A stretch of 59,109 nt of DNA from Pseudobdellovibrionaceae bacterium (GTDB lineage: Bacteria > Bdellovibrionota > Bdellovibrionia > Bdellovibrionales > Bdellovibrionaceae): the NCBI GenBank assembly GCA_021731025.1, contig JAKFYD010000061.1, positions 1-59,109 on the forward strand, written 5' to 3'. Made by a program: the position numbers and the translations under genes. Below the pieces are notes generated by a model. That model had not been told where the DNA came from. It was given only the letters and a program-made list of their open reading frames with translations, and searched no databases. This document shows positions 16,435-22,830 of the stretch, piece after piece (position 1 is the first letter of the stretch; each line of letters begins with the position of its first letter).

Positions 16435-16806
16435 CTAGGGATGAAAGAGGTCGTACTTCTGAAAAAACCTTTTTGCTATATTTTGGATTTCTCCATCAGT
16501 TGATTTATCCAATGTTTCTATGCCAACGACTTTCTTTGCGAGATGTTCGTGGTCATAATCAAGGTGATTTTTAAACTCAGTTTTTGCTAAACCTGGACCG
16601 ATCAAAAGAATTTCGTCGGCGTCATTCAGACTTTTCGCCACTTCATGGTAGTACTTTTTCAGGTTGTTCTTTTTTTCTTGTTCGAAATGGCCAGTATGAC
16701 GATTTTTTGTATGATCATTTTTAATTTCCTTTTTAGTTGGAGATTTTTGACTGTAGCTGAATATTTTAGCATGATCATGTTCAATCCAAACTATACAATG
16801 TGACAT
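16435..16806 (-). CDS. eRF1-domain-like (baeRF-type) protein, 123 aa
   Basis: The sequence MSHCIVWIEHDHAKIFSY, KKYYHEVAKSLNDADEILLIGPGLAKTEFKNHL and KKVVGIETLDKSTDGEI fits the bacterial relatives of the eRF1/RNase E-like domain, often annotated as translational machinery or baeRF proteins and thought to act near ribosomes. ATG 16806 has AGAGGAG 6 bases before it. The frame continues upstream to 16956 but that extension (50 codons) crosses the regulatory block and lacks a good start. It is divergent from the 132-aa secreted protein at 17074 and shares a 22-bp upstream motif with the CBS-domain gene at 19749. Confidence 0.75.
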   Translation of the reverse strand: MSHCIVWIEHDHAKIFSYSQKSPTKKEIKNDHTKNRHTGHFEQEKKNNLKKYYHEVAKSLNDADEILLIGPGLAKTEFKNHLDYDHEHLAKKVVGIETLDKSTDGEIQNIAKRFFQKYDLFHP

Positions 16807-16872: not shown

Positions 16873-16979
16873 TAATATACAAATATGACGCCAACAAAAT
16901 TTAATGCTTAGAATCAACCTGTTTAACTTAATCTTAAAAAGGAGACAAGTTGTCATTAACAGTCATGACAAAATGTCTC
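16873..16979. promoter_or_regulatory. Divergent regulatory block, copy 1
   Basis: Two elements here recur at 19792-19895. First, a 22-bp motif (16873-16894) identical at 21 of 22 bases to 19792-19813. Read toward the minus-strand gene it contains TTGGCGTCATATTTG, i.e. TGGC-N7-TTGT, close to the sigma-54 pattern TGGC-N7-TTGC. Second, an imperfect palindrome (16942-16979) bounded by GAGACA and TGTCTC. It contains GACAAGTTGTC and a downstream GACAAAATGTCTC half also present in copy 2. It sits between the eRF1-like gene and the secreted-protein gene. Confidence 0.6.
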
Positions 16980-17073
16980 GAAAATTCTTTTTTCTCAGAC
17001 TATCTCAAAGCTGGACGTTTTAGGTGTGGATTGGAAATTGAAATGCTGAAAGAAAACCACAAAGGAGTATTCA

Positions 17074-17472
17074 ATGAAAATTCGTTTCTCATTTCTTATC
17101 GGCGCCATTTTATTAACAAGCGGAATGGCTTTCAAAGCTAACGCAGCAGAAGGCGGTACTAAACTAATTCAAGTTGGGATCAGCGATGTTTTCATACCTG
17201 CAGGGTTTGATAGCACATCTGATGCCTACGTCGTCGCAAGTGGAGTTTTTCCAAATGGCTGTTATCGCTGGAGTCACGCAGAAGTTACTCACAAGGACAC
17301 AAATGTTCATGAAGTCAGAAGCATGGCTAATGTAAGTCAGGGCATGTGTATTATGGTTTTGGTGCCATTTTCCAAAGCTGTTAAGCTGGGTAAATTCGCT
17401 TCTGGTAAACATACACTTAAATTTTTAAACGGTGATGGTACCTACTTAGAAAAAAGCTTAACTATAGAATAA
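17074..17472 (+). CDS. Secreted 132-aa protein, paralogue A
   Basis: A signal peptide of about 24 residues (ending FKANAAEG) precedes a ~108-residue domain with beta-rich pattern. It is strikingly similar to the protein at 19999: both have VASGVFPNGCYRWSHA, VTHKD, and a second Cys in a context ending MVLVPF, and both end HxLKFLNxDGT. The two conserved Cys residues probably form a disulfide in the periplasm. AAGGAG precedes ATG 17074. The family is not known to me. It is followed 10 bp later by a metallopeptidase lipoprotein gene, suggesting an operon. Confidence 0.85.
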   Translation: MKIRFSFLIGAILLTSGMAFKANAAEGGTKLIQVGISDVFIPAGFDSTSDAYVVASGVFPNGCYRWSHAEVTHKDTNVHEVRSMANVSQGMCIMVLVPFSKAVKLGKFASGKHTLKFLNGDGTYLEKSLTIE

Positions 17473-17482
17473 GAGGTCGAAT

Positions 17483-18844
17483 ATGAGAGTCAGATTATTA
17501 GCTCTGTTTTCGTTAATGATCGGCTGTCAGGACAAGTTCGTTGAAAGAAAATTAAATTGGGATGCCGAGCTTTCAGCGTCCAGGCAAGAGGCCCCTCAAC
17601 TTAGTATAAATGATGGGCTTTTTACTGAGACTAGTTTCAAACTTAAGAATCATGAGATCAAATTCTATTCCCAAATGCTGAATGGGGTTCGAGTTAGTGG
17701 TTCTTTGGTAAAGGTGTTGGCCCAAACCCAGGGCCAACCTATTTTAATTAACGGCAGCTACATGAAAGAAATTGAAACGAACTATTACAACACTGAAGAC
17801 GCAAAGAAAAATCTTCCTAGGGCGTACTCTTTATTGATGCGCTCGTCTCCTCAGTTTCAGAAGACAAAGCTTTTAGAAAGTGAAGTTGTCTACAGTCGCC
17901 TTGGTCGCCAAATGATTCTGATGAATCTATTCTTGGTTGAAGATCAAGAGGGTAAAATATGGCAAGTTAAAACCTATCCGAGTGGATCGTTTATATCGAT
18001 GGTTAAAGTAGGATCAAATTTCGAAACCCGGCAGGCGCAGGTTTATCCTCGTGGTCCGAAACAAAGCGAGATGACCCGAGTTCAGCTTTTTGATTTGAAT
18101 CTGGGAAAAGCGTTAGTCAGTCAACTTCTGCAAGTTTCTTCAGAGGCAAATAGGCAAGCCATTTCACCAGAGGATCTACTTTCGCTCAGTCCAAAAGATG
18201 AAAGGTTTGATCAAGTTCAAGTGTTCTACTTTTCGCAGCAGGCTTTGCGTTGGATCAGTGAAAAATTTGGGGTGAAGCCTAATTCGGTCATTGATATTGA
18301 AGTCCATGTTGGCGCTCCTGAAAAAACAAACATTGCCTTTTACTACAATAGTAAAATTAGATTTGGATCCGGGGATGGAGAAAACTATTTTAAAATTCCC
18401 CAGGATCCCAGCATTGTCGTGCATGAAACCTTTCATGCTGTCATTGATCAACTTTGTCGATTGCCTTTTCAAGGGGAGGGAGGTTCATTAAACGAAGGTT
18501 TTGCTGATTCGCTAACAGTCTTATATTTAGATCAACCTCATTTAGGAGGAGTTGCTTATCTAAAAGGTCCTTATAAAAGAACAGCAGATAACCAAAGCCG
18601 CTTCAGCGATCGCAACGGCGGTCTTTACCACGACTCTTTAATAATCAGTGGACTTCTATGGGAACTCCGAAATAAAATTGGCCACGAAAAGACATTGGCG
18701 TTAACTTATAATCTGCTGTTGAAAATGGGGCCCGCCAGCACCTTTGAAGATTTAAAAAGAAATGTTCACAGCGAGATTAAGAAAGTTTTTTCAAAAAATG
18801 AAGTTGAGGTCGCTGAGCAGATTTTAAAAGAAAGATCCTGGTGA
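17483..18844 (+). CDS. Gluzincin-type zinc metallopeptidase lipoprotein (453 aa)
   Basis: A short signal with lipobox MIGC (Cys15) predicts a lipid-anchored envelope protein. The catalytic centre is HETFH (residues 314-318), with the third zinc ligand probably E338 in GSLNEGFADSL, the arrangement of the M4 (thermolysin) clan. The first ~200 residues resemble a propeptide/FTP-like region (FYSQMLNGVRVSGSLVKV), which keeps such enzymes inactive until processed. Operon with the 132-aa protein upstream and a 126-aa protein 3 bp downstream. A digestive or envelope-processing role is inferred, not shown. Confidence 0.82.
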   Translation: MRVRLLALFSLMIGCQDKFVERKLNWDAELSASRQEAPQLSINDGLFTETSFKLKNHEIKFYSQMLNGVRVSGSLVKVLAQTQGQPILINGSYMKEIETNYYNTEDAKKNLPRAYSLLMRSSPQFQKTKLLESEVVYSRLGRQMILMNLFLVEDQEGKIWQVKTYPSGSFISMVKVGSNFETRQAQVYPRGPKQSEMTRVQLFDLNLGKALVSQLLQVSSEANRQAISPEDLLSLSPKDERFDQVQVFYFSQQALRWISEKFGVKPNSVIDIEVHVGAPEKTNIAFYYNSKIRFGSGDGENYFKIPQDPSIVVHETFHAVIDQLCRLPFQGEGGSLNEGFADSLTVLYLDQPHLGGVAYLKGPYKRTADNQSRFSDRNGGLYHDSLIISGLLWELRNKIGHEKTLALTYNLLLKMGPASTFEDLKRNVHSEIKKVFSKNEVEVAEQILKERSW

Positions 18845-18847
18845 TTT

Positions 18848-19228
18848 GTGACGTTGGGAAGTGCTGTCATTGGGCTTTGGCTCTATGTTGGCGTGATATA
18901 CCAGGGTAAGGAAATGCCACTGCCTAATCCAGCACTGCAGCTTCAAATGATATTTTTAGATTCAACACAAATGAAACTGCGATATTCATATCTTGATGAG
19001 AGTGGTTTTTGTGAAAGTACGTCCAATTACGTTTATAATTCACTCAAAAAAAATTTACACTTAGAAGTGGTTGAGGTTCACCCAGAGAATGCTGAGTTTT
19101 GTCAGAAAGACCCTGACATGCAGCTAGGGCGAAAAAGTAAAACGCCCGTCGCTTTAAAAGAAGATCGACTTCACTTTCAACTTGGGTTGGGCGAAGAGGA
19201 ATTAACCATGATTTTGATACGTCAGTAA
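18848..19228 (+). CDS. Small membrane-anchored or secreted protein (126 aa)
   Basis: GTG start 3 bases after the peptidase stop. The N-terminus is hydrophobic (SAVIGLWLYVGVIYQG) and could be a signal or membrane anchor. The rest is a small soluble domain with two Cys (GFCEST, EFCQKD). No family recognised and no clear ribosome-binding site, so translation may depend on coupling to the upstream gene. It converges with the CBS-domain gene 11 bp away. Confidence 0.65.
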   Translation: MTLGSAVIGLWLYVGVIYQGKEMPLPNPALQLQMIFLDSTQMKLRYSYLDESGFCESTSNYVYNSLKKNLHLEVVEVHPENAEFCQKDPDMQLGRKSKTPVALKEDRLHFQLGLGEEELTMILIRQ

Positions 19229-19239
19229 ACGCAAATATT

Positions 19240-19749
19240 CTAAATCCCAGCTTGGCTCAACGAATTGCTTGCACTTTGAATCCAGGGTGTATTCAGAATT
19301 CTTTCGAGAGACCAAGATGAAGCTTTTTCATCGCGAAGATAGTGAAGTAGAAGCTGTAAAAAGTTTTCGGATGAAACAATGCCCACAATATCTTGTCCAT
19401 CAGAAATTAGATAACAAGAAATTTTATCCTTGATCATGGATTGAACCACCTGATCCAAAGGTGTTTTCTTATCAAAGGTTTTTACCGGGCTTGACATGTA
19501 TTCATAAACAATTTCCGTTGGATCAAATTTAGCGTCTTCAACTTTAAAACCAGGTTGATGGATAATCTGTGTTTTTAAAGCTCGTAAAAGATCGCGATCA
19601 GACAAAATCCCAACAACTTCATCGTATCTGTTCAGGACAGGAAGATGACGAATGTTATTGATCTGCATCAGACGGTAAGCATTGGCTAAAGATTCATTTT
19701 CATGGGTTGTAATCAATTTGTCTGTCATGCACTTTGAAAGTGTTTGCAT
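19240..19749 (-). CDS. CBS-domain pair protein (169 aa)
   Basis: Two CBS domains fill the protein: CMTDKLITTHENESLANAYRLMQINNIRHLPVLNRYDEVVGILSDRDLLRAL, then YMSSPVKTFDKKTPLDQVVQSMIKDKISCYLISDGQDIVGIVSSENFL. Such pairs bind adenine nucleotides and sense energy state; no partner enzyme domain is fused. AGGAGG lies 5 bases before ATG 19749. It is divergent from the second 132-aa paralogue and shares its upstream motif with the eRF1-like gene at 16806, suggesting common stress or growth-phase control. Confidence 0.9.
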   Translation of the reverse strand: MQTLSKCMTDKLITTHENESLANAYRLMQINNIRHLPVLNRYDEVVGILSDRDLLRALKTQIIHQPGFKVEDAKFDPTEIVYEYMSSPVKTFDKKTPLDQVVQSMIKDKISCYLISDGQDIVGIVSSENFLQLLLHYLRDEKASSWSLERILNTPWIQSASNSLSQAGI

Positions 19750-19791
19750 AGAGCCTCCTCATACTTATTTTTAATTTTACACCTTAAATTT

Positions 19792-19895
19792 TAATATACA
19801 AATAGGACGCCAAGAAATTTCTGTTATTAAATAATCTATTCACTTTGGGGTCCTGCGCGAGACAAGTTGCCTTCGCCACCGCGACAAAATGTCTC
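19792..19895. promoter_or_regulatory. Divergent regulatory block, copy 2
   Basis: It repeats the block at 16873-16979. The 22-bp motif at 19792-19813 lies 43 bp before the CBS gene start. The GAGACA...TGTCTC element at 19859-19895 (37 bp against 38 in copy 1) keeps GAGACAAGTTG at one end and GACAAAATGTCTC at the other, while the middle differs. Retention of the ends and loss of the middle argues for selection on the two half-sites. Confidence 0.6.
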
Positions 19896-19998
19896 ATTCT
19901 GTTTCTTATCTCGAAGCGGCTCTAGACTAAGACATGGATTGAAAATTGTAGGACATGAGAAGGTGAGAATAGAATCCCTTTGGGAAGGAGTCCCTCTC

Positions 19999-20397
19999 GT
20001 GAAAAATGCAATTTTGATTTTTGTCTGTAGTCTTTTATCTTTTAATTTATCCTTCGCCTCAGGTGCTGAGGCAAACCCGCGGCTTGTTCAAGTTTATGCC
20101 AGTGATGTTATTATACCCATGGAGTTTACAAGCACCTCGGAGGTGTATGTCATCGCTAGCGGGGTTTTTCCAAATGGCTGCTACCGGTGGAGTCATGCGG
20201 ATGTGACTCATAAAGACAGGATGACTCACGAAATTAAAATCATGGCCGTTGTCGTTGAAGGCCCATGTAAAATGGTTTTAGTTCCTTTTTTAGAACCTAT
20301 TCCCCTAGGAAGATTTGATGTTGGCCATCATAGTCTTAAATTTTTAAATCATGATGGAACACACACTGAGAAGATTTTGCAGATCGAGAGCTTTTAA
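19999..20397 (+). CDS. Secreted 132-aa protein, paralogue B
   Basis: GTG start at 19999 chosen because AAGGAG lies 8 bases upstream and it gives a clean signal peptide (NAILIFVCSLLSFNLSFASG) and exactly the same length as paralogue A; the longer open frame to 19867 would run through the regulatory block. The mature domain shares GVFPNGCYRWSHA, VTHKD and MVLVPF with paralogue A and keeps both Cys. Function unknown. The metallopeptidase lipoprotein at 21001-22830 is close by, though on the other strand. Confidence 0.85.
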   Translation: MKNAILIFVCSLLSFNLSFASGAEANPRLVQVYASDVIIPMEFTSTSEVYVIASGVFPNGCYRWSHADVTHKDRMTHEIKIMAVVVEGPCKMVLVPFLEPIPLGRFDVGHHSLKFLNHDGTHTEKILQIESF

Positions 20398-20419: not shown

Positions 20420-21016
20420 TTACAATTCGCGTTCAGCAGCCAGCTGATCCACTGAGACTTTCTGTGCGGGAGCTAAGTATTCCATTGAGTCTTGAGGCCG
20501 GCTGCTTAAGACGGCAGTGGATCCTAATTCTTGTTGCGAAGTATTTGCTTTTGCTTCGAGTGTGATGACACGTTTATCGGTTTGATCAAAGCCAGTGACC
20601 TCAAGTTTAACCTCTTGCCATACTCGCACTTGGTTGGGATCGAGAGTCCCTTCGACAGGACCCCTTACTCTGAACACACCGTCCGGAAGAATCCATTTGT
20701 ACTTTAGAGTCGAGGCCGAGGCTTGCGTTACCATAATGTGGCCTTTAATTTCCACCGATCGTCCTGCAGTTTCTGGAATCGAAGCTGATGGTTGTAAATT
20801 AACGTAAACCAGCGAGAGATGTTTCCCCTGATAAATGACTTTTGATGCTTTAGTTGTGGATAGCGATGCGAATTCGATTTCTCCCGAGGTGAGTTCATTG
20901 CTTTGGTAAAAGCTATTGTAAGTCGCCATACCAACAAAGCCTAAGACGACACCAAAGGGGATAAAGAAAGAGGCTCGTCGTGAATAAATAAAAAATCTTT
21001 TTAGTAAGTAGGACAT
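20420..21016 (-). CDS. Single-pass membrane protein with periplasmic domain (198 aa)
   Basis: The N-terminal anchor (ASFFIPFGVVLGFVGMATY, about residues 15-33) is followed by a periplasmic domain with beta-rich segments (SVEIKGHIMVTQAS, LKYKWILPDGVFRVRGPVEG, VKLEVTGFDQTDKRVITLEA), perhaps an Ig-like fold. No family recognised. It overlaps the end of the metallopeptidase gene by 16 bases, so the two are translated from one message and may work together. Confidence 0.75.
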   Translation of the reverse strand: MSYLLKRFFIYSRRASFFIPFGVVLGFVGMATYNSFYQSNELTSGEIEFASLSTTKASKVIYQGKHLSLVYVNLQPSASIPETAGRSVEIKGHIMVTQASASTLKYKWILPDGVFRVRGPVEGTLDPNQVRVWQEVKLEVTGFDQTDKRVITLEAKANTSQQELGSTAVLSSRPQDSMEYLAPAQKVSVDQLAAEREL

Positions 21017-22830
21017 AAGACCTTCCCGGTAGCTGTTTCGTTAAGCGTGTATGTTGCTGTGCCATTCAATTGCGCTGTTATTTTTCCGTAAGTTGCAGCA
21101 CGAACGTTAATAATGTAAAAACCCGCAGCTTGGCCCGTCATCGAAATTGATTCGGTTCCGCTTTCAAAAGTGGGATTTCTGCGAACACTACGAACGACGT
21201 AGGTGCTATTTGTTTTTCCATTGTCCTCGTCGGATTCTTCAAAGTAAATATAATCTTGTTTATATACCACAAGATCAAGATCAATGGTTTGAACTCCAGC
21301 TTGGCTGTAGGCCAGACTGATTTGATCGTTTGTCGAACCGTTGTAGTAGTATTCGTAAAAGTGATTCGAACGAAATTGATTCGAGCGACTGCTCGATTGA
21401 GTGACGGGGTCCAATGAAATTGGAAATTTTGAACAGCCAGCTGAAGGCGTCAGCGAAACAGGATTGGCATAATATTTTGTATCTGTGGGCTGTTTTTCGT
21501 TGGTCAAAATCGCGTTCCACGCCGCTTGATTGGCCGAATAGGTGGCTGTATTGACAACACTGTTCAGTAAACCAATAAATTTTCCCGAGTTCCTGAAATG
21601 CACGGCTGACGAGTGAAAGCCCGTTGTGCTTCCCGCAAAGATAGTCCAAATTTCAGAAAAAGGTAAACCAGCGGCTAAAGAAGAAGTGTTGGTGCTAATG
21701 GGTGTCGCGATACTTTTATAAAGGGATCGAGTCACTGAAAGTTCGCGGTAAACACCTTCACCAGCAAAACTAACAGCATCCATGGTTGTCGTAGCACCAC
21801 TTTCATCCAACCGAAAATAAATCTGCAAGTTGCAACTGCCACTGGTTTCGACAGTGTCGTTGCAATAGCCTGCGGTATCCGCATAGTTTTTGGTTCCTTG
21901 CACGGCGGCTTGAAGAAAATTAGCCCAGCCTTCACTCCACGCAAGGCGAGGATCAATAATCATATTTCCATTGTGGGAACCGCCCGGAGAATCGCTCTTT
22001 CCATAAATATCTTCTAAGAAATGCCCGTACTCATGAATGATCACCGAGTTGTCAAAATGATCCGTGTCTGATGTTTTAACGTTTCCATCTTTTCCACCTA
22101 AGATGTAGAGCTTTCTTTCGCCCGCGGCATAAAAGCTCAGCAAAGTGCTGGGGTAACCAAAATAAGAATAAGGATTAAATCCCGCTTTCCAGTAAGCAGT
22201 GACTTTCTCGGCCACCCAATTGTTATCGCTAATTTTTGTGCGGATGTAATCGTTGGTTTTGTACAGTTGTTTTAATATATTGAAAGCGGCCCCTTCGATG
22301 GCAGCACTCTCACTTTGTCTGGCATAGGCGGTTACTTGTCCCAAAGCTTGCGTCGTAGAAGTGCCATCAAGGGTGATTGTCTTTGAAATTGAATAAGGAG
22401 TGTTAGCGTTAATATCATCAAGAACACTGGCTTTTAAAAGAGCATTGTTTGCTCGAGAATTAATTTTGACCGTATAAGTTCCTGCGGTTTTAGGTAAGCT
22501 TAATGAAATATTCCCGCTTCCATCAACGGAAGAACATTGAACTTCAGTCCCGGTAGAATCTGTCACGACAACTTCGGCTGCGGCAATCGTGTCACTAACG
22601 GGGTTTCCCGAAAGTACATGAGCCGTGGCATGTGTAGGCCGGTAATAATAAACAGCGGTGCCTGTTACCGTTACCGCAGGAGAATATGTACGAACACTCG
22701 AGCAATATGTGGATTCTGAAGCAACGTTAGCGCTTCCGCCACCGCCGCCTCCGCCACTGCTGCAGGCTGAAAGAAAAGTAAAGTTGAGGCCGAATAGTAA
22801 GAACCTCAGAAAAGACAATTTCATAGACAA
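21001..22830 (-). CDS. Zinc metallopeptidase lipoprotein with HEYGH motif (609 aa)
   Basis: The lipobox LSAC (Cys23) is followed by a Gly-rich linker of seven glycines. Residues ~90-150 look like a carboxypeptidase-regulatory or Ig-like domain (VVVTDSTGTEVQCSS...GNISLSLPKTAGTYTVKI). The catalytic motif is HEYGH (residues 266-270), with a likely third ligand E300 in SEGWANF. The C-terminal ~120 residues resemble a bacterial pre-peptidase-type beta domain (DLDLVVYKQD, SMTGQAAGFYIINVRAATYG). Predicted to be surface- or periplasm-facing. The target is unknown. A GTCTCA-N3-TGAGAC palindrome lies about 60 bp upstream of the start. Confidence 0.85.
   Translation of the reverse strand: MSMKLSFLRFLLFGLNFTFLSACSSGGGGGGGSANVASESTYCSSVRTYSPAVTVTGTAVYYYRPTHATAHVLSGNPVSDTIAAAEVVVTDSTGTEVQCSSVDGSGNISLSLPKTAGTYTVKINSRANNALLKASVLDDINANTPYSISKTITLDGTSTTQALGQVTAYARQSESAAIEGAAFNILKQLYKTNDYIRTKISDNNWVAEKVTAYWKAGFNPYSYFGYPSTLLSFYAAGERKLYILGGKDGNVKTSDTDHFDNSVIIHEYGHFLEDIYGKSDSPGGSHNGNMIIDPRLAWSEGWANFLQAAVQGTKNYADTAGYCNDTVETSGSCNLQIYFRLDESGATTTMDAVSFAGEGVYRELSVTRSLYKSIATPISTNTSSLAAGLPFSEIWTIFAGSTTGFHSSAVHFRNSGKFIGLLNSVVNTATYSANQAAWNAILTNEKQPTDTKYYANPVSLTPSAGCSKFPISLDPVTQSSSRSNQFRSNHFYEYYYNGSTNDQISLAYSQAGVQTIDLDLVVYKQDYIYFEESDEDNGKTNSTYVVRSVRRNPTFESGTESISMTGQAAGFYIINVRAATYGKITAQLNGTATYTLNETATGKVLCPTY

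Follow-up and report, generated by a model that had tools for sequence, protein, structure and literature searches.

Known systems and the locus

Sigma-54 activators with 4-3-4 dyads are a familiar class: NorR binds GTCA-N3-TGAC, and the half-sites of PilR are TGTC. The NtrYX regulons of Paracoccus, Neisseria and Bradyrhizobium control the cbb3 oxidase and the nitrite and NO reductases (PMC9409073). Among translation-related proteins, the baeRF-1 family has been linked to ribosome hibernation factors (PMC6514570).

The window (the whole stretch of DNA analysed, 59,109 nucleotides from a Pseudobdellovibrionaceae bacterium) carries two neighbouring divergent loci that resemble these systems in part. 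Taking the evidence jointly, it appears likely that they contain a two-way sigma-54 switch governed by a candidate NtrC-type regulator, within a respiratory-stress regulon that includes an exported protein, here called SEC.

Two divergent loci and their intergenic block

Both loci follow the shared plan that had been read from the sequence alone: minus-strand genes start at 16806 and 19749, and plus-strand genes for 132-aa proteins start at 17074 (ATG) and 19999 (GTG). The minus-side proteins are indeed mutually unrelated, one being a CBS pair and the other matching the central domain of pelota/eRF1 alone. The features are as follows.

16435..16806, minus strand: eRF1/pelota central-domain-like (baeRF-like) protein, 123 aa; weak, consistent matches below cut-off
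16878..16893, minus strand: sigma-54-like -24/-12 element TGGCGTCATATTTGTA, facing the baeRF-like gene; p 0.026 against shuffles
16942..16956, unstranded: dyad 1a, GAGACAAGTTGTCAT
16965..16979, unstranded: dyad 1b, ATGACAAAATGTCTC
17027..17042, plus strand: sigma-54-like element TGGATTGGAAATTGAA, facing SEC1; weak
17032-17047, plus strand: alternative register TGGAAATTGAAATGCT facing SEC1, overlapping the preceding element; better score, p 0.027
17074..17472, plus strand: SEC1, secreted protein of 132 aa, all-beta, two cysteines conserved
17483..18844, plus strand: M4-type (thermolysin/aureolysin-like) metallopeptidase, predicted lipoprotein; operon gene 2
18848..19228, plus strand: lipocalin-fold protein; operon gene 3
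19240..19749, minus strand: CBS-domain pair protein (E 1e-24)
19797..19812, minus strand: sigma-54-like element TGGCGTCCTATTTGTA, facing the CBS gene; p 0.017
19859..19873, unstranded: dyad 2a, GAGACAAGTTGCCTT
19881..19895, unstranded: dyad 2b, GCGACAAAATGTCTC
19935..19950, plus strand: sigma-54-like element TGGATTGAAAATTGTA, facing SEC2; p 0.19 alone
19999..20397, plus strand: SEC2, the second 132-aa secreted paralogue, with a GTG start

SEC1 and SEC2 share 56% identity over their full length as proteins and 63% in coding DNA, and a search of the genome found these two copies only. Local alignment of the two intergenic regions scores 38, where 1000 shuffled pairs averaged 10 and reached 18 at most. 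The conserved pieces are TAATATACAAATANGACGCCAA and GAGACAAGTTG...GACAAAATGTCTC, together with a third, TGGATTGRAAATTG, which lies near the plus gene and was absent from the list in the sequence-only reading.

Each block is composed of four elements: a minus-facing element, two dyads in the middle and a plus-facing element. The minus-facing element, TTGGCGTC[A/C]TATTTGTATATTA, adjoins the minus gene and contains TGG-N8-TTG with sigma-54 spacing; the plus-facing TGGATTGRAAATTG is also TGG-N8-TTG. The 22-bp motif of the sequence-only reading, which is conserved in both blocks and includes the element at 16878..16893, resembles a degenerate sigma-54 -24/-12 element that faces the minus gene, rather than a separate operator. 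The GAGACA...TGTCTC element of that reading resolves into the two dyads, which are of the GACA-N3-TGTC type, 22-23 bp apart, one of them with a mismatch. Measured to the divergent elements on either side, their offsets are near mirror images in both blocks: block 1 has -85/-62 and -86/-63, block 2 has -76/-54 and -83/-61. Dyad 2b stands from the SEC2-facing element at -54, the commonest offset in relatives.

A young segmental duplication, leaving two blocks alike without conserved function, would suit the position of the modules as neighbours within 3.5 kb. It is scarcely credible as the whole explanation: the paralogue DNA has diverged to 63% identity while the dyads and the minus-gene element have hardly changed, and further dyads occur at other places in this genome and in relatives. 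The inverted repeat might instead form an RNA hairpin within a transcript leader, and copy 1 does fold well as RNA (z -4.6). However, the fold of copy 2 is unremarkable (z -1.9), an Rfam search gave no match above the gathering score, dyads elsewhere are single or differently spaced, and the proposed promoter is downstream of the repeat in both blocks, which makes a hairpin very improbable.

Strength of the sigma-54-like elements

The genome encodes sigma-54 (rpoN) together with enhancer-binding proteins. Measured against the reference pattern, with GG at -24 and GC at -12 as in TGGCAC-N5-TTGC, the window elements are degenerate. GG and TTG are kept at the right spacing; the usual -12 GC is found in none of them in the conserved register and is present only in the alternative register of SEC1. 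Individually the four elements are weak, with a combined p of 0.001. Unlike them, the promoter at ppsA is a clear -24/-12 sigma-54 promoter. Sigma-54-like sites between dyads and start codons exceed shuffles overall (combined p 4e-8, or 4e-6 with the window excluded); 18% of 51 control upstream regions pass p<0.05, and direct comparison with these controls gives p 0.013.

This degeneracy would also be consistent with ordinary sigma-70 promoters, the dyads serving as operators of another factor (Crp/Fnr type, or a repressor), and one dyad does lie upstream of a Crp-Fnr gene. Such an arrangement is nonetheless improbable, given a sigma-70 promoter scan at background (7 found, 7.7 expected), the fixed spacing between dyad and sigma-54 site in relatives and the linkage of the dyads to a sigma-54 activator. 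A terminator scan was likewise at background level. The Fnr, DosR and LexA site types do not match the odd-centred GACA-N3-TGTC dyad.

Dyads across the genome

The strict pattern GRGACA-N3-TGTC occurs eight times genome-wide, three of these in the window blocks. Because the reversed pattern, used as control, also occurs eight times, the evidence lies in the location of the dyads and not in their number. In this genome-wide motif search, foreseen in the sequence-only reading, three of the five dyads outside the window are intergenic (C8, C16, C52) and adjoin stress or respiration genes, namely usp/ppsA, another CBS gene, and hemerythrin-norCB / Crp-Fnr-nnrS; the other two fall within coding genes (C11, C15). 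A variable-spacer search for the double dyad gave one more genomic copy, upstream of the CBS gene just named. A single-dyad scan with TGACANNNTGTC was set aside as mostly chance (22 rows, 21 for the reversed control).

Dyads with one mismatch are present in the cbb3-oxidase cluster: by the response regulator, by the PAS kinase, and in the gap that separates ccoI from a gene cut short at the end of the contig. This last gene has a weak multicopper-oxidase match and is, to judge from it, a putative copper nitrite reductase (nirK). At L134:6129-15328, hemerythrin accompanies a cluster of nitric oxide reductase-like type, with genes for cytochrome c and a NorB-like protein; the cluster is divergent from a Crp-Fnr gene and nnrS, and one dyad is common to both sides.

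Gene products of the two loci

The baeRF-like protein matches the pelota model in its central domain only (E 2e-9; 37.3 bits, cut-off 177.65) and Pfam eRF1_2 at E 0.0013 (19.5 bits, cut-off 27.1). The structure model of SEC is all-beta and confident (about 97 pLDDT in the mature part), and two cysteines are invariant. SEC matched no known family, no significant fold was found for it in PDB or viral models, and its profile had no match among PDB sequences.

SEC1 is followed by the M4-type peptidase and the lipocalin-fold gene, an order found at most of the 35 loci examined; by this sequence criterion, SEC1 heads a conserved three-gene operon. The peptidase (Pfam M4, 28.6 bits, above the cut-off of 22.4) retains its zinc motifs, HExxH and the downstream NExxAD glutamate, and its N-terminal cysteine suggests a lipoprotein. 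In the lipocalin-fold protein G9 and W11 of the GxW motif are invariant; Lipocalin_4 matches 5 of 23 homologues, and calycin-barrel folds match with probability 1.00, though at E 0.003. Its likeness to nitrophorins was considered as a sign of heme or NO binding and dismissed, there being no histidine among the invariant columns. It is plausible that the three products form an envelope module made under limited respiration.

Beyond SEC2, two minus-strand genes (window 20420-22830) encode proteins of 198 aa and 609 aa with no confident family; the latter, lipoprotein-like and with an HEYGH motif, is possibly a metallopeptidase.

SEC promoters in relatives

Of 66 genomes of the family 46 have a SEC homologue, as do 89 of 144 of the class; the class count takes in distant relatives, where the frames are longer and in some cases hold two matching stretches. 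Many of these genes are preceded, at 68-102 bp from the start, by a clear TGGCAC-N5-TTGC sigma-54 promoter. In those loci the best upstream dyad departs from chance (combined p 4.5e-11), with the caveat that cross-genome p-values are not independent because the genomes are related. It lies at -53 to -55 in 9 of 21 SEC loci, which none of 20,000 random draws matched; in relatives a dyad often stands upstream of the SEC promoter at a fixed helical phase. Since the dyad model was derived from the window, the dyads of relatives constitute independent support, although these genomes are related to one another.

Near the regulator described below, some genomes also encode longer proteins, of about 250 aa, in which SEC-like stretches occur once or twice (L175:7472, L176:10940, L072); in L176 a dyad precedes one of them.

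A candidate activator

The genome encodes 16 strong enhancer-binding proteins. The most likely activator would be the receiver-AAA-Fis response regulator at G000:C4:112625-114064, whose gene adjoins that of a soluble PAS histidine kinase and the cbb3-oxidase cluster and whose start is closely preceded by a near dyad. In 11 other genomes (G025, G026, G035, G032, G049, G027, G046, G054, G034, G028 and G002) an orthologue is encoded no more than 8 kb from SEC, directly upstream of it in two, and in relatives the NtrC-type regulator near SEC usually adjoins a PAS histidine kinase. In 363 kb of regulator and SEC neighbourhoods, picked independently of the dyad, 19 dyads were found against 2.7 expected and one for the reversed pattern. 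All but two of the 19 (17/19) are intergenic, typically in the gap between regulator and kinase and next to genes of the CBS, USP, baeRF-like, SEC and cco groups. Presence of the regulator is modestly associated with SEC promoter strength (p 0.03), with exceptions such as G007. The NCBIfam models for NtrX (383 bits, cut-off 600) and NorR (332 bits, cut-off 476) both score the candidate below cut-off, and it has an N-terminal receiver domain.

The same two-way enhancer could be read by a paralogous enhancer-binding protein, such as those at G000:C1:49690 and C55:14555, which belong to a clade kept in Bdellovibrio-like genomes and are 50-52% identical to the candidate. G016 and G018, which have the paralogue and lack the orthologue, contain perfect dyads with a sigma-54-like site at -74. 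On the other hand, the paralogues have the recognition helix DRKTLYRKL where the candidate has NRRTLYRKE, no near dyad was found at the paralogue loci examined, and in many genomes the dyads are concentrated near the candidate and its kinase. A paralogue is an unlikely reader of the window sites. Nevertheless, perfect dyads in Bdellovibrio-like genomes without the orthologue indicate that this site can probably also be used by a different activator. In two such genomes the perfect dyad GAGACAAAATGTCTC (L189:1501-1515, L190:1501-1515) precedes the gene for a small secreted protein rich in Gly and His, and a sigma-54-like site follows the dyad after 74 bp.

A different activator, 45% identical, is encoded directly upstream of SEC in G062 and G064 (L045:4351-5720, L051:4301-5670). 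In these genomes the dyad is changed to GGGACAAATTGCCCC and the recognition helix from NRRTLYRKE to NRKTLYRKE, possibly a natural shift in specificity.

Proposed mechanism and significance

Under the favoured reading, each block would be a bidirectional sigma-54 control region, or enhancer, in which two GRGACA-N3-TGTCYC dyads bind an NtrC-type response regulator. Bound there, the regulator would activate two divergent sigma-54 promoters, one serving a cytoplasmic stress protein (baeRF-like or CBS) and the other SEC. The regulon would extend to cbb3/nirK, nor/hemerythrin/nnrS, usp/ppsA and CBS genes, and this membership makes low oxygen, NO or respiratory stress the probable signal. SEC1 would be co-transcribed with the M4 lipoprotein peptidase and the lipocalin-fold protein, presumably as an envelope module, and SEC2 would be an extra copy under a copied control region.

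The idea of a small regulon is partly borne out, by the shared block and the dyads beside stress and respiration genes, with SEC1 as the head of a three-gene operon. In place of ribosome or energy sensing as such, what joins the members is more likely to be microaerobic respiration, NO and dormancy, controlled by a sigma-54 activator.

A broader interpretation is offered tentatively, with slightly less than even confidence: a hitherto undescribed two-component sigma-54 regulon of the Bdellovibrionia may couple microaerobic/NO respiration and dormancy proteins to SEC (modelled as an exported beta-sandwich protein), the M4 peptidase and the lipocalin-fold protein, with control of SEC lost in most Bdellovibrio-like genomes and the operon kept. 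No paper on such a sigma-54 regulon in Bdellovibrio was found in the open literature searched. The proposal provides a concrete putative regulon for an exported protein family found in this class, and puts forward a candidate regulator, responsive to oxygen or NO, for a lineage whose members are known chiefly as predators. In Bdellovibrio-like genomes without the regulator, the SEC operon is kept and apparently rewired.

Comparison with known systems

The proposed architecture belongs to a known type, for which NtrYX (PMC9409073) may be compared; the regulon, the exported module and their place in the Bdellovibrionia look new. As in NtrYX, an NtrC-family regulator is encoded beside a histidine kinase, and the cbb3 oxidase, nir, nor, Fnr-type regulators and nnrS are among the putative targets. 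In contrast to NtrYX, the candidate falls below the NtrX cut-off, the kinase is a soluble PAS protein, and the proposed targets include SEC, CBS, USP and baeRF-like genes with direct sigma-54 promoters. With activators of the NorR type the candidate shares a Fis-type HTH and short, 3-bp-centred palindromes upstream of sigma-54 promoters, but the half-site is another one, and a receiver domain stands where NorR has a GAF domain.

To judge from its weak profile matches, the baeRF-like protein of the window would have, like baeRF-1, the core domain without flanking domains; unlike in the baeRF-1 linkage, no hibernation factor adjoins it within the window. The M4 peptidase has the HExxH and NExxAD active-site motifs in common with aureolysin and thermolysin. 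It differs from them in being divergent, in being a predicted lipoprotein and in lying behind SEC at most SEC loci.
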